Assembly (NCBI RefSeq): GCF_902825155.1
Contig: NZ_CADEAG010000001.1
Location: 372,001 to 436,000 of the forward strand
Direction: 5' to 3'
Origin: Bartonella taylorii 8TBB
GTDB taxonomy: Bacteria > Pseudomonadota > Alphaproteobacteria > Rhizobiales > Rhizobiaceae
Length of the DNA: 64,000 nucleotides
The notes under the pieces are model-generated. The model had not been told where the DNA came from and searched no databases. It saw nothing but the letters and a program-made list of their open reading frames with translations. Shown here piece after piece: positions 3,001 to 63,016 of the stretch. Position numbers and translations under genes: made by a program. Each line of letters starts with the position of its first letter. The stretch's first letter is position 1.

Positions 3001-4006
3001 CCGTATTTCTCATGATGGAGAGACAGATTTGGTGTTTAATCTTGATCACGCCAATTATAATGATGGTTCGATGATTCTTGCAACGTTGTCCGGCAAGATG
3101 ACAATGACGGGCCATTTTTTAGGCAACCTTGTTATTGGTGGTGATGTCATCGTTGAAAAAGCTGAAATTCTTGTTCCGGATCATTTTCGAAACGCAAAAT
3201 TTCTTAATATTAAGAATAAGAATTTAACTAAATCGATTCAAAAAACGCTTGAACGTGCTGACGTTAAGATCACTACCAAAACTCGTAATATCTCTCAAGA
3301 ATCTTCATCTGTTATGTTATCAGATATGCGTATTACGGCACACAATCAGTTTTTTGTACGTGGACGAGGGTTAGATACTGAACTAGGAGGGCGCATTAAC
3401 TTAGCAGGACCACTGAATGATGTGCAACCAGTTGGTGAGTTTAGGATGATTCGTGGACGTTTTGATATTCTTTCACAGCATCTTAATTTTGACCAAGGAC
3501 AAGCAAGTTTTAGCGGTAATCTTAATCCTACGGTTTATTTTGTCACCAACAATAATAGTGGTGATATTCGCGTTACGGTAACTATAAGTGGAACGATTGA
3601 TAATCTTGATATTAATTTTTCTTCACAACCAAATTTGCCACAGGATGAGATCTTGGCACGTTTGATTTTTAATCGCTCTCTTAATGAGTTATCACCATTT
3701 CAGATTGCTCAGCTTGCGGCAGCGGCAGCTGATCTTGCAGGAGCTTCTAATACATCTTTATTGAATGCTCTACGGGCTAAAATTGGTCTTGATGATCTTG
3801 ATGTTATCGTTGATGAAAAAGGTAATACGGGTTTACGCGTTGGACGTTATATACACAATAACATTTATTTAGGCTTTGAAGCAGGATCGGATGGAAAGAC
3901 GAAAGGGACAATTAATTTAGACATTTCACGCAATCTCAAAGCTAAAGGCGCCATAGGAAATGAAAAAAATTCTAGTGTGGGTTTATTTTATGAAAGAGAC
4001 TATTAA
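2..4006 (+). CDS. tamB: TamB-like translocation and assembly module protein (DUF490), 5' partial
   Basis: The reading frame is open from the first complete codon (base 2), so the true start lies upstream; the TTG at 23 is not a convincing start. About 1334 residues are visible. They consist of repeated beta-rich, AsmA/TamB-like segments with many Gly-Asn-Asp turns, ending in a conserved C-terminal DUF490 region (about residues 1000-1334, including the LARLIFNRSLNELSPFQIAQLA stretch in part) and the aromatic end FYERDY. TamB is an inner-membrane-anchored periplasmic protein that partners the Omp85 protein TamA and is implicated in autotransporter assembly and phospholipid transfer to the outer membrane. 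tamA would be expected just upstream, outside the window. No frameshift is seen. Identity rests on length, repeat style and C-terminus. Confidence 0.88.
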   Translation, partial: DESQNGILANIFNIEKRPALNLSIRGDGTFDDLVVSLSLEANHHPVLHGNVILASVAEGHGFSTKLVGTLGPLIPPQYRSLFESDMTLKAEARITKEGVKHLDHMVIQSKTMNILANAEITTDGFLRRLFIDGKMALDKENGATHLSASETPMRADNLALNIDYGREGQQSWNGRLVVHQLSNKNIRIRDAIFDMGGVSENLDNAASRHVGIQIKGTLQGIEKSKSTLGEGLGQTVHVHLDTDVVSKKPVLIHDFSITGQGFSAWLKGKMNRFVFKGDLGLKAQTLAPFSLLSRQSLSGSTDIKAKGTIGLIDGVFDLELSGMADNMKIGVEPFDRFFKGNFILSGGAAYDTASLILRRLDLKSQYANIKADGYFSSESAKMDFYAQISDLAKLDSRMNGALTVQSTARGRNNLIKFNTNAHVAEAFLVGKKLKNTTLTIKTLMDNTSPSASLTGSIKGEGTFSEKPLHLSASFKDSNQIRKLEDINIRGGSAKITGDLSQKLGGFVKGALHIDADDISVLAALFLQEGSGKVKGDFIFDEQNGRQKANLKAHVDRLSFAKNKIKKLEVKADVFDPLGMAQFEGFINADHIQTPFMMVNRLNAHANGNDGQTVFNVKAMLPNDTNARLSGRMVTARFPEGIKREVQIETIDVKQHNLHATLPKSATIFFDKDGMTINELGIAINGGKVILSGNVQDTLNLHLTMNALPAALANLWKSNLGAAGTLTGQVIIRGPFKKPDVTYDIKGEGLTTNALQDKNVMPFVLAATGKTVEQNLILNTNLMGEGVQAQAQGRISLDKNTLDLHVNLQDFPARLVNSFIEGQALGGTIVGKVDIGGTMKDPSAHFELSSQNLTAMTHKGPMSINMNTRGSYKKSTFHIENIIATGDKGLDLSINGPVSFNGSEARLNVKGTMPLAFIDLLLAKRGAHVTGTARIDATLNGELLKPQLVGDLSIVDGSFFDSKTNVGLNNITIEGKSNGDHILIEKASASSSEGGSISASGRISHDGETDLVFNLDHANYNDGSMILATLSGKMTMTGHFLGNLVIGGDVIVEKAEILVPDHFRNAKFLNIKNKNLTKSIQKTLERADVKITTKTRNISQESSSVMLSDMRITAHNQFFVRGRGLDTELGGRINLAGPLNDVQPVGEFRMIRGRFDILSQHLNFDQGQASFSGNLNPTVYFVTNNNSGDIRVTVTISGTIDNLDINFSSQPNLPQDEILARLIFNRSLNELSPFQIAQLAAAAADLAGASNTSLLNALRAKIGLDDLDVIVDEKGNTGLRVGRYIHNNIYLGFEAGSDGKTKGTINLDISRNLKAKGAIGNEKNSSVGLFYERDY

Positions 4007-4507
4007 CGATTGAAGTTCTTAAGTTCCAATTACTGAAGTGTTATGCACTTAACTCTCTAAGGCAGAGGAAGATTAAAACTGGGATGAGGAATCTCATAAA
4101 AGAAGAAGATTTTTTATAAAATCGTGAGAAGATACGTCTGAAATATTTGTTTTTTGTTTATTACATTTTCTCAGTGAGGGGCAAGCTTTTCACGAAAAGC
4201 AGCACTTTGTTATATTGCTCATTCACGTGCTTGTTTTAATATTTCTCGTTGCTCCAAATTGCACCCCACGCTGGCACTGGTAAAGAGTATAACGCAAAAT
4301 CCGTTGGGCACCACCAATCTTTACTAATGCAAGAGTCAAGCGGGCACATCATTTACTTTGTCAGCTTCTAATTTTGCCAACTGTTCTTGCATTGAGACGG
4401 TTTATGAAATGTATATTTATTGCTTGCCTAAATAGTTTCTTATTCACGCGCTGACTTGTCTTGCGATGTACAAGAAAACAATTTTTTGATTCCTGCATGG
4501 CAAGGAT
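4007..4507. other. Gene-free stretch after tamB with a possible decayed minus-strand remnant
   Basis: No intact gene is seen. On the minus strand about 4160-4400 reads as broken protein-like sequence: an opening MQEQLAKLEADK, and an end LEQREILKQARE followed by two in-frame stops and QSAAFREKLAPH. I do not recognise the family. It may be a remnant of a lost gene beside the decayed transposase, but the case is weak. Confidence 0.3.
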
Positions 4508-45286: not shown

Positions 45287-46149
45287 TGTCTTGGTTGCTT
45301 GAACCGCTGAGCTATCAATATATGGTTAATGCGATGTGGGTTTCGGGATTGGTGGGGTGTGTGTGCGCTTTTCTTTCTGCTTTTTTGATGTTGAAAGGTT
45401 GGTCGCTTATTGGTGATGCACTTTCCCATTCGATTGTACCTGGAGTAGCAGGGGCTTATCTTCTAGGGTTACCTTTTTCTCTTGGAGCATTTTTTTCTGG
45501 TGGTCTTGCTGCGGCAGCGATGCTCTTTTTTAATCACCGGACAAAACTGAAAGAAGATACTATTATTGGTCTCATTTTTTCTTCCTTTTTTGCTTTTGGC
45601 TTGTTTCTCAAATCATTAAAACCAATGGCCGTTAATATTGATACGATTGTTTTGGGAAATATTTTAGCAGTTAGCTCGTCAGATATTATACAATTGGCTT
45701 TTATTGGTTTTTTTTCTTTGCTTATATTGCTTTTGAAATGGAAAGATCTCCTTGTTTCTTTATTTGATGAGACGCACGCACGCGCTATTGGATTAAACGT
45801 AAAGTTTTTAAAGATACTTTTTTTCACATTGCTTGCCGCTTGTACTGTTGCTGCTATGCAAACAGTTGGAGCGTTTTTGGTCATTTGTCTTGTGGTGACG
45901 CCTGGAGCAACAGCTTATCTTTTAAGTGACCGTTTTGTGAATGTTTTAGTTATTGCAGTTATAATTGGGACATTCACAAGTGTATTAGGTGTCTATGTGA
46001 GTTATTTTTTGAATGCACAAACGGGTGGCGTTGTTGTACTTTTTCAAGCATTTCTATTTATTTTAGCTTTCATTTTTGCTCCTAAACATGGGTTTATAGC
46101 GGCACGCTTACGTATAAATGCGGCAAAAAAAGGTGTGATGTTATCATGA
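45283..46149 (+). CDS. sitC: Mn/Fe ABC transporter permease
   Basis: A 288-residue ABC-3 family membrane protein with about eight helices. GWSLIGDALSHSIVPGVAGAY is the conserved N-terminal segment and LVVTPGATAYLLSDRF the later one. It pairs with SitD to form the metal channel. Its ATG overlaps the sitB stop by four bases (ATGA). Two adjacent ATG codons (45283 and 45286) are possible starts. Confidence 0.93.
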   Translation: MMSWLLEPLSYQYMVNAMWVSGLVGCVCAFLSAFLMLKGWSLIGDALSHSIVPGVAGAYLLGLPFSLGAFFSGGLAAAAMLFFNHRTKLKEDTIIGLIFSSFFAFGLFLKSLKPMAVNIDTIVLGNILAVSSSDIIQLAFIGFFSLLILLLKWKDLLVSLFDETHARAIGLNVKFLKILFFTLLAACTVAAMQTVGAFLVICLVVTPGATAYLLSDRFVNVLVIAVIIGTFTSVLGVYVSYFLNAQTGGVVVLFQAFLFILAFIFAPKHGFIAARLRINAAKKGVMLS

Positions 46150-47051
46150 TTGATCAATTACTACTTCCTTTTCAGTTTTCTTTTATGCTTAAGGGCATGC
46201 TTATTGTCATAATCCTTTCTGTTCCAATGGCGATGCTTTCTTGTTTTCTTATTTTGAAAGGATGGGCGCTTTTAGGCGATGCAATTTCTCATGCGGTTTT
46301 TCCTGGTGTTGTGCTTGGTTACATGGCGACACCGTGGGTGATAACAGTTTTGACTTCTTTGCCATTTGTTTGGTTTCAGCAAGTGCGCCCAGAGAATGTT
46401 ACAATGACCTTGATTGCTTGTGGTGCTTTTATTGCAGGTATGGTTTGTGCTCTTACAACAGGTTTTTTAGGGAGCAATAGCCGTATCAAGCAGGACACGG
46501 TGATGGGTGTTGTTTTTTCGTCTATGTTTGGTTTGGGGCTTGTTTTGGCAACATCCATTTATAGTAGCTTAGACTTAAATCATATTCTATTTGGTAATCT
46601 CTTGGGTGTTAACTGGCTTGATATCACGCAGACGGCGATAATTTCTGCTGCTGTTACCTTTATTTTAGGAGCGAAATGGCGCGATTTTATGCTGTATATT
46701 TTTGATTCAGTTCAAGGTCGTGCAATGGGGTTGCGTATATCAGTACTCCACTACACTCTTTTAACAATGATTTCTCTCACGATCGTTGCAGCTTTGAAAG
46801 CCGTTGGGATTGTTCTCGTTATTTCTTTATTGATAGCACCGGGAGCAATTGCTTATCTTGTCACAAAGCGGTTTTCTTTTATGTTGGTGATTGCTATATT
46901 TATTGCCGCTTTTTCTGGTTTTTTAGGAGTTTATCTAAGTTTATTTCTTGGTTCTGATTCTGCTTCCACGATTGTGTTGATTTTGACTTTGATTTTTATC
47001 ACTATTTTTACATCGACTTTTTTTCGCCGAGTTACAGTTCAGGAAATTTAA
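46146..47051 (+). CDS. sitD: Mn/Fe ABC transporter permease
   Basis: A 301-residue ABC-3 family permease paralogous to sitC, with KGWALLGDAISHAVFPGVVLGY and LLIAPGAIAYLVTKRF as the family segments and about eight to nine helices. Two different permease subunits are typical of SitABCD/YfeABCD-type systems, in contrast to single-permease Znu systems. Its start overlaps the sitC stop (ATGA). A small-RNA-like structured region and a terminator follow. Confidence 0.93.
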   Translation: MIDQLLLPFQFSFMLKGMLIVIILSVPMAMLSCFLILKGWALLGDAISHAVFPGVVLGYMATPWVITVLTSLPFVWFQQVRPENVTMTLIACGAFIAGMVCALTTGFLGSNSRIKQDTVMGVVFSSMFGLGLVLATSIYSSLDLNHILFGNLLGVNWLDITQTAIISAAVTFILGAKWRDFMLYIFDSVQGRAMGLRISVLHYTLLTMISLTIVAALKAVGIVLVISLLIAPGAIAYLVTKRFSFMLVIAIFIAAFSGFLGVYLSLFLGSDSASTIVLILTLIFITIFTSTFFRRVTVQEI

Positions 47052-47119
47052 GTGTAATAAAGTTCGTGCATAGCAGACATGCGTTTTTGTCTATTGTCTC
47101 TTATGCTTGTTTTAACTAG

Positions 47120-47246
47120 AAGGCGTGGTGCTAGGCTGTTTTCCTCCTAATGTCTAGCAGATGGATGCAGTATGTATTCTCCCCCCAACACTGCATTCGT
47201 AATTGAGAGGCTGCATTGATTTATTCTGCAGCCTTTTTATTTTTTG
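47120..47246 (+). ncRNA. Candidate anti-Shine-Dalgarno small RNA downstream of sitD
   Basis: Three successive hairpins. TGCTAG (47129-47134)/CTAGCA (47154-47159) has a 19-base loop containing TTTTCCTCCTAA. ATGCAGT (47165-47171)/ACTGCAT (47190-47196) has an 18-base loop containing TCTCCCCCC. AGGCTGCA (47208-47215)/TGCAGCCT (47227-47234) is followed by TTTTATTTTTT. Loops exposing CCUCC-like anti-Shine-Dalgarno sequence before an intrinsic terminator are the design of rhizobial small RNAs such as the alpha-r14 group. No promoter was identified with confidence, so it could also be a processed 3' end of sitABCD mRNA. Confidence 0.5.
47208..47246 (+). terminator. Factor-independent terminator after sitD
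   Basis: AGGCTGCA and TGCAGCCT form an 8-bp stem with an 11-base loop (TTGATTTATTC), followed by TTTTATTTTTT. It ends sitABCD transcripts and/or the candidate small RNA. Confidence 0.85.
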
Positions 47247-47272: not shown

Positions 47273-47300
47273 TTGAAACTTTTAAAATGATTATCATATT
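47273..47300 (+). promoter_or_regulatory. Promoter region with Fur-like palindrome before the DUF454 gene
   Basis: TTGAAA (47273-47278) could be a -35 element with CATATT or TATTGC as -10. ATGATTATCAT (47287-47297), a perfect 11-base palindrome like a Fur half-box pair, sits between them. The DUF454 ATG is about 140 bases downstream. Confidence 0.4.
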
Positions 47301-47435: not shown

Positions 47436-47822
47436 ATGAAAAAAGATTTTACTACATCTCACCCTTTGCGTATCTTCATGTCTGTAGTGGGTTGGGCAAT
47501 GGTTATATTGGGTATCATCGGCATAGTGCTCCCTATTATGCCAACCGTACCCTTTTTGTTAGTTGCTTCATGGTGTTTTGCGCGTTCATCACCACGTTTT
47601 CATCATTGGTTGAATAATCACCGCGTTTTCGGTCCGCCTATTAAGCAATGGGAAGAAAAGAGAGCTATTCCACCATTAATTAAAGTTTTTGCGGTGGTGA
47701 GTATGGCGGGAGGCTTTTTATCATTTTTGATGATGCTGCACCCTGCTTTGTGGTTTGCTTTGTTGGTTGCGGCTGTTTTATTGTTGATAGCCATTTATAT
47801 TGTGACGCGTCCATCTTCATAA
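47436..47822 (+). CDS. DUF454 (YbaN-type) inner membrane protein
   Basis: A 128-residue membrane protein of the YbaN/DUF454 family. Three or four helices are seen: about 12-40 (VVGWAMVILGIIGIVLPIMPTVPF in part), 83-102 and 104-123. Between them is the conserved loop ARSSPRFHHWLNNHRVFGPPIKQWEEKRAIP. Function is unknown in the family. The upstream palindrome suggests metal-responsive control, and the sit operon lies just before it, separated by a terminator. Confidence 0.85.
   Translation: MKKDFTTSHPLRIFMSVVGWAMVILGIIGIVLPIMPTVPFLLVASWCFARSSPRFHHWLNNHRVFGPPIKQWEEKRAIPPLIKVFAVVSMAGGFLSFLMMLHPALWFALLVAAVLLLIAIYIVTRPSS

Positions 47823-62940: not shown

Positions 62941-63016
<76 letters not shown>

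Follow-up and report, generated by a model that had tools for sequence, protein, structure and literature searches.

The closest described relatives of the RNA reported here are NfeR1 and the αr14 small RNAs of rhizobia and BbsR14 of Bartonella bacilliformis. NfeR1 of S. meliloti is reported to repress ntrB through anti-Shine–Dalgarno (anti-SD) seeds and has defined targets. LsrB binds the sequence TGCA-N6-GCAT at the NfeR1 promoter, reported at −72 to −57, where it activates transcription and is needed for expression. A 2020 review lists αr14 RNAs in the Rhizobiaceae, Brucellaceae and Phyllobacteriaceae. BbsR14 of B. bacilliformis KC583 was described from RNA-seq data (PMC7717549); it is reported to carry two TTCCTCCTAA loops and to be significantly more abundant at pH 8.2 than at pH 6, and the authors speculate that it represses translation indiscriminately. 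The main text of that paper makes no mention of ar14, r14, Rfam, sitD, abcR or lsrB. According to a 2011 survey, the Bartonellaceae are among the families with members of the cuckoo group of seven models, and Bartonella relatives may have been listed before. Homologues in Bartonella are also reported for an RNA named MH_s11 (PMC5596092). Among the matches listed from open-licence papers, none links a Bartonella RNA to αr14.

A three-hairpin RNA gene downstream of sitD

Within the window, the 64,000-nucleotide stretch of Bartonella DNA analysed here, a predicted small RNA gene occupies about 47124–47239 on the plus strand, both ends being estimates; it is recognized by the Rfam model RF02344 and by our own covariance model R1. 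Its upstream neighbour is sitD, the final gene of the sit operon, an open reading frame for a metal ABC permease on the same strand (46146–47051; Pfam ABC-3, E 2.4e-64). Downstream, also on the plus strand, lies a DUF454 gene (47436–47822; Pfam PF04304, E 3.3e-39). The Fur-like palindrome AATGATTATCAT stands upstream of that gene at 47286–47297 and is kept in many Bartonella; its 6 matches with at most one mismatch in the window are at chance level (18/100 shuffles), so its support is its conservation. At gathering score, the window's only Rfam match is a tRNA gene at 62941–63013.

The stretch 47120–47246 folds with RNAfold to −39.4 kcal/mol, against a mean of −28.5 kcal/mol for 200 dinucleotide shuffles (z −3.15; 0/200 as low). 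As the original prediction proposed, it contains two long-loop hairpins followed by a strong terminator, with stems longer than the 6–7 bp first given. Hairpin 1 (47129–47159, plus strand) has 8 bp plus 3 bp inside, its stem changes among copies preserve pairing, and its loop is near-invariant. Hairpin 2 (47161–47200, plus strand) has 11 bp and an 18-nt loop, of which several types occur across the genus. The intrinsic terminator hairpin with its T tract covers 47205–47238 on the plus strand: GGCTGCA (47209–47215) pairs with TGCAGCC (47227–47233), followed by T5, and this element alone (47205–47246) folds to −15.9 kcal/mol (z −4.41). A simple terminator scan limited to loops of up to 8 bases listed no terminator here.

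Both long loops had been predicted to expose anti-SD sequence, and this holds for the first. The segment TTTTCCTCCTAA at 47139–47150 forms the anti-SD seed of loop 1, with CCTCCT at 47143–47148, and its duplex with an ideal SD reaches −10.5 kcal/mol. The loop of hairpin 2 displays CTCCCCCC at 47179–47186, a derived C run whose duplex reaches −6.3 kcal/mol, compared with −10.8 kcal/mol for the CTCCTCCC/CUCCUCCC second loops of relatives. On this energy we rejected CTCCCCCC as a good anti-SD in its own species.

The RNA is present throughout Bartonella

A copy lies behind sitD in all 71 Bartonella genomes searched, in a diverged form in 57 and a canonical form in 14. Our DNA search returned full matches in 56 genomes (54 scoring above 100 bits, G002 and G008 about 69), and a partial match in G007 was extended to full length by local blastn, giving the 57 diverged genomes; sitD is present in the same locus in every one of them. 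The canonical set includes B. apis, B. apihabitans and B. choladocola. Here the RNA lies about 1 kb from sitD in 14/14 genomes; 13 were placed by tblastn (L078–L089, L060), and for G059 the placement comes from its contig position, consistent with L192. The content of this gap was read in one locus, L186 of B. apihabitans, where a glycosyltransferase family 25 gene at 3369–4244 occupies the space between sitD and the RNA. Of the 14 canonical-type genomes, 13 (G003, G004, G014, G044–G046 and G057–G063; the exception is G064) have an additional ar14 match elsewhere that is weaker and under the cut-off (46.7–57.7 bits).

The diverged copies were aligned (A1: 59 copies from 57 genomes, two of them second copies; 25 pairs, 1474 cells); an additional contig copy in G053, whose genome shows 10% contamination, was excluded. 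Pairing is held in 99.2% of the pair cells, reaching 99.6% in helix 4, the terminator helix, while slid structures are at most 47.3% paired. Compensatory base changes in relatives, which the original prediction had named as a check, are present: both-sided changes affect 6 pairs in 16 cells, compared with shuffled means of 2.3 and 3.2 (0/500 shuffles reach the observed values). Much of this both-sided change was contributed by B. bacilliformis-like genomes and a small number of others, which leaves few independent covariation events.

Descent from the αr14 family

A permissive scan of the 801-base neighbourhood matched the window RNA to Rfam ar14 (RF02344) over its full length (47123–47240; 30.1 bits, E 0.0012), below the gathering cut-off of 58.8 bits. 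No further ar14 match occurs in this genome up to E 10; the single hit is weak by itself, since 9 of 14 control genomes also have a match at that level. At E 0.1 under stricter filters, 26 of the 57 diverged genomes match and 31, including the source genome of the window, do not; the Rfam cut-off is reached by none of the 57 diverged copies. The canonical copies, syntenic with the diverged ones in 14 of the 71 genomes, score 72.7–87.2 bits against the same model and exceed the cut-off.

The two forms are connected by R1, which was built solely from diverged copies (59 rows). It found all 11 canonical loci supplied, at the same locus (63.7–77.6 bits, E 6e-14 to 5e-11). On the window RNA, whose sequence is itself in the model, R1 gave 136.9 bits, the genome's next best score being 21.1. 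Outside Bartonella, 33 sitD loci (L198–L230, mostly with 2.5-kb flanks) gave no R1 match at E up to 1, and 17 of these compared with Rfam at gathering scores gave no ar14.

The window RNA has the three-hairpin layout with the terminator last. The family definition calls for CCUCCUCCC unpaired in all three hairpins; here loop 1 holds only CCUCCU, loop 2 reads CUCCCCCC, and the terminator loop holds no anti-SD. The assignment to the αr14 kind made in the original prediction is supported as one of descent, by the Rfam match below cut-off, the R1 matches and the compensatory changes. It is the genus-wide copies that settle the point and lead us to call the RNA αr14-derived: judged from sequence, a member by descent, and one that falls outside the printed definition and the Rfam cut-off.

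The published BbsR14 probably belongs here as well. G007 and G008, two B. bacilliformis-like genomes, each contain the pattern TTCCTCCTAA-N15-45-TTCCTCCTAA a single time, located behind sitD. From this double TTCCTCCTAA loop we infer that BbsR14 is the B. bacilliformis copy of the Bartonella sitD-linked αr14-type RNA; the locus was read in strain Ver097, whereas BbsR14 was described from KC583. The gene at 47124–47239 is likely its orthologue. In the B. bacilliformis-like loci L056 and L058, the whole unit of box, hairpins and terminator is tandemly duplicated, with loop 2 of the second copy changed to TCATCCC.

A promoter box shared with an AbcR-like RNA

The LsrB/VtlR-like box TGCATANCAGNCATGC (plus strand, 47067–47082; also written TGCATAGCAGACATGC) starts 15 nt past the sitD stop codon. 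Of its 14 fixed positions, one (47078) agrees in 47 of the 59 aligned copies and the other 13 in 51–59. Its reverse complement satisfies all fixed bases of the VtlR box, published as GCAT-N3-TG-N3-T, and it agrees with 7 of the 8 fixed bases of the LsrB site TGCA-N6-GCAT. The window RNA therefore has a conserved, predicted LsrB/VtlR box in its promoter. TATTGT (47092–47097) begins 25 nt after the box start and opens a core promoter candidate on the plus strand (47092–47121), in which ATTGTC (47093–47098) and CTAGAA (47116–47121) are separated by 17 nt. This candidate was read from the sequence, compared with the CTTGAC-N17-CTATAT promoter quoted in PMC7717549, and is partly conserved in relatives; an E. 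coli-type promoter scan did not list it. Relative to the presumed start, the box is less distant than the site of NfeR1, reported at −72 to −57, a point against the explanation favoured below. Outside Bartonella, GCAT-N3-TG-N3-T was found at 6 of 30 ar14 loci (either strand, within 110 nt), an uncontrolled count; of the loci as a whole, 24/30 are without a VtlR-type box and several upstream stretches read by eye like gene ends.

The source genome contains one match to the LysR-type HTH at E 0.001. The best solved relative of this protein is LsrB of A. tumefaciens (9HH1, 458 bits), and by sequence comparison it is the LsrB orthologue; no NCBIfam model reached its cut-off among the 25 listed. 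Orthologues are present in 71/71 genomes, as the sole relative at 1e-20 in 58, while the other 13 have 4–6. A thioredoxin-reductase-like gene, identified by eye from its translation, precedes the regulator gene, and an AbcR-like RNA with a weak ar15 match (17.5 bits, E 0.29) follows it. In the promoter of this second RNA, the box and TATTGT recur at the spacing seen ahead of the αr14-derived RNA.

We scanned 30 fetched regulator loci of the 71 for the ar14-promoter pattern and found it in 28 within 4 mismatches (21 at 2, 5 at 3 and 2 at 4); in L146 and L149 it was not found within the flank. The best among 150 mononucleotide shuffles had 5 mismatches (7/150), as had the best among the 33 unrelated sitD loci. 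From the regulator gene to the AbcR-like promoter, L144, L145, L147, L148 and L150 are about 270–830 bases longer than other loci. A pattern drawn from both promoters occurs within 3 mismatches at two places in the source genome, both exact, with 0 in the control; the exact hits follow by construction, because the pattern was drawn from these promoters, and only their exclusivity is informative. No third small-RNA promoter was found in this genome within 3 mismatches. With the same pattern, both sites are exact in G033 and carry 0 and 1 mismatches in G023, each genome having 1–3 more at 3; in G043 the ar14 site is exact and a site at 3 mismatches lies directly behind the LysR gene. Four genomes (G002, G003, G008 and G064) show the ar14 site, at 0, 0, 3 and 2 mismatches, with no AbcR-side site recognized within 3, so promoter sharing is not established in every lineage. 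Other matches at 3 mismatches also occur in these genomes, and in the backward control G008 yielded 3 hits and G003 and G064 one apiece.

On these observations, the RNA is probably under the positive control of LsrB/VtlR, the one LysR-type regulator found in the genome, which would bind the box at 47067–47082 and activate both this RNA and the AbcR-like RNA beside its own gene. In relatives, LsrB control is tied to redox or host-contact signals; by analogy, such signals may also govern the Bartonella RNA.

Stepwise loss of anti-SD loops

All 13 canonical Bartonella copies that were folded present CTCCTCCC in each of their three loops, including that of the terminator. The diverged copies have no anti-SD in the terminator loop and a near-invariant UUUUCCUCCUAA in loop 1. 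Loop 2 varies: in the first copies of the 57 genomes it is a C run of 4–11 in 39, CTCCTCCC in 16 and TTCCTCCTAA in 2. Canonical copies accordingly have three anti-SD loops; among the 57 diverged genomes, 18 have two and the remaining 39, including the source genome, have one (UUUUCCUCCUAA). The seeds thus went from three to two and, here, to one good one.

This polarity rests on the outgroup state and not on the root of the tree. On the sitD tree, 5 changes are needed for the C-run group and three of the 16 CTCCTCCC genomes fall within it; the outgroup branches are long and doubtful. Tree labels for the canonical genomes were assumed and are borne out by the folds of the canonical copies. One could extend this to a fuller scenario in which the loops were lost one after another, the C run of the large lineage (4–11 C, its length varying with the species) uses slippage as a switch or contacts a new partner, for example a G-rich mRNA or a C-binding protein, and the one LysR protein acts mainly via two small RNAs; taken as a whole, we regard this as improbable.

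Mode of action and alternative explanations

We think it quite probable that this is an independent, trans-acting small RNA descended from αr14/NfeR1, activated by LsrB and acting through loop 1 on SD regions. The RNA would be about 115 nt long, transcribed from its own promoter and ended at the intrinsic terminator. Loop 1 (UUUUCCUCCUAA) would pair with the Shine–Dalgarno regions of target mRNAs and block their translation, as NfeR1 does; by homology, translational repression through this loop is what we expect. The terminator loop and loop 2 have lost such seeds here, with canonical copies keeping all three. The nitrogen control exerted by NfeR1 need not carry over to the Bartonella RNA.

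The RNA could instead serve as a decoy that has no chosen targets and slows translation by pairing with SD sequences in general, in line with the speculation in PMC7717549 that BbsR14 represses indiscriminately. Its seeds do consist of anti-SD sequence, and our target scans brought up no sharply complementary target. The ribosome-binding pattern TTAGGAGGA-N3-9-ATG gave 8 matches in 4 genomes. Two are in the source genome and two are their counterparts in G023; read by eye, all four fall within coding sequence, in frames resembling carB and folC, and they were rejected as targets. A genuine site of this type may belong to a 51-aa frame in G008 (L237). Loop 1 energies of −8 kcal/mol or lower were found at 7 of 40 start regions in the window versus 26 of 200 random places, with no clear enrichment. 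However, the U and A bases on either side of the anti-SD core of loop 1 are conserved almost as tightly as the core itself, which suggests pairing beyond the SD, and NfeR1 is reported to have defined targets. We therefore consider a targetless decoy rather unlikely.

It is also unlikely that the hairpins are the 3′ end of the sitABCD mRNA, either as its structured terminator or as a small RNA cut from it. The RNA does lie on the sitD strand, about 75 nt past the sitD stop codon, with no terminator listed between, and some read-through from sitD is possible. Yet the near-invariant promoter box stands between the two. In the canonical genomes, moreover, sitD and the RNA are about 1 kb apart, and the box is found beside the RNA rather than beside sitD in 12/12 loci read; the tandem duplication in two B. 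bacilliformis-like genomes likewise includes the box. The original prediction had left the choice between an independent RNA and one processed from the sit mRNA; the intervening promoter, together with copies in which box and RNA lie away from sitD, disfavours processing, and the first of its two options is probably right. A chance cluster of inverted repeats with no RNA function beyond termination is extremely improbable: intergenic sequence in AT-rich genomes folds readily, but this one has copies in 71/71 genomes, compensatory changes, a near-invariant loop 1, an Rfam match and a likely orthologue seen by RNA-seq.

Comparison with known systems

The independent αr14-descended RNA favoured here would join BbsR14, detected by RNA-seq and left unexplained, to NfeR1, a studied regulator of symbiosis. 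It would also give the LysR protein that is the only one of its type in most of these genomes a regulon of two targets, so that control may run via two small RNAs. The series of copies from three through two to one anti-SD loop offers a natural test of how many seeds such an RNA needs. What is new is the promoter link and the stepwise loop loss; the RNA itself is a divergent offshoot of a kind already known, and an orthologue has likely been published.

With NfeR1/αr14 it shares the three hairpins with the third as terminator, an anti-SD in a long loop, the LsrB-type box upstream and a length of about 120 nt. It differs in its loops (UUUUCCUCCUAA and CUCCCCCC versus CCUCCUCCC), in a terminator loop without anti-SD, and in copy number, with one in its own genome compared to six reported for S. 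meliloti. BbsR14 would occupy the same place behind sitD and has the same loop 1, whereas both of its loops are TTCCTCCTAA, a second tandem copy is present in the genomes read, and loop 2 of the window RNA differs. The cuckoo RNAs (SmelA075/SmelA099, with CCUCCUCCC loops) likewise display anti-SD sequence in hairpin loops; they are described as several copies per genome. AbcR1/αr15 resembles it in having an anti-SD loop, in its reported activation by LsrB/VtlR in relatives and in the promoter element common to the two in Bartonella, and it is a separate RNA, encoded beside the LysR gene.
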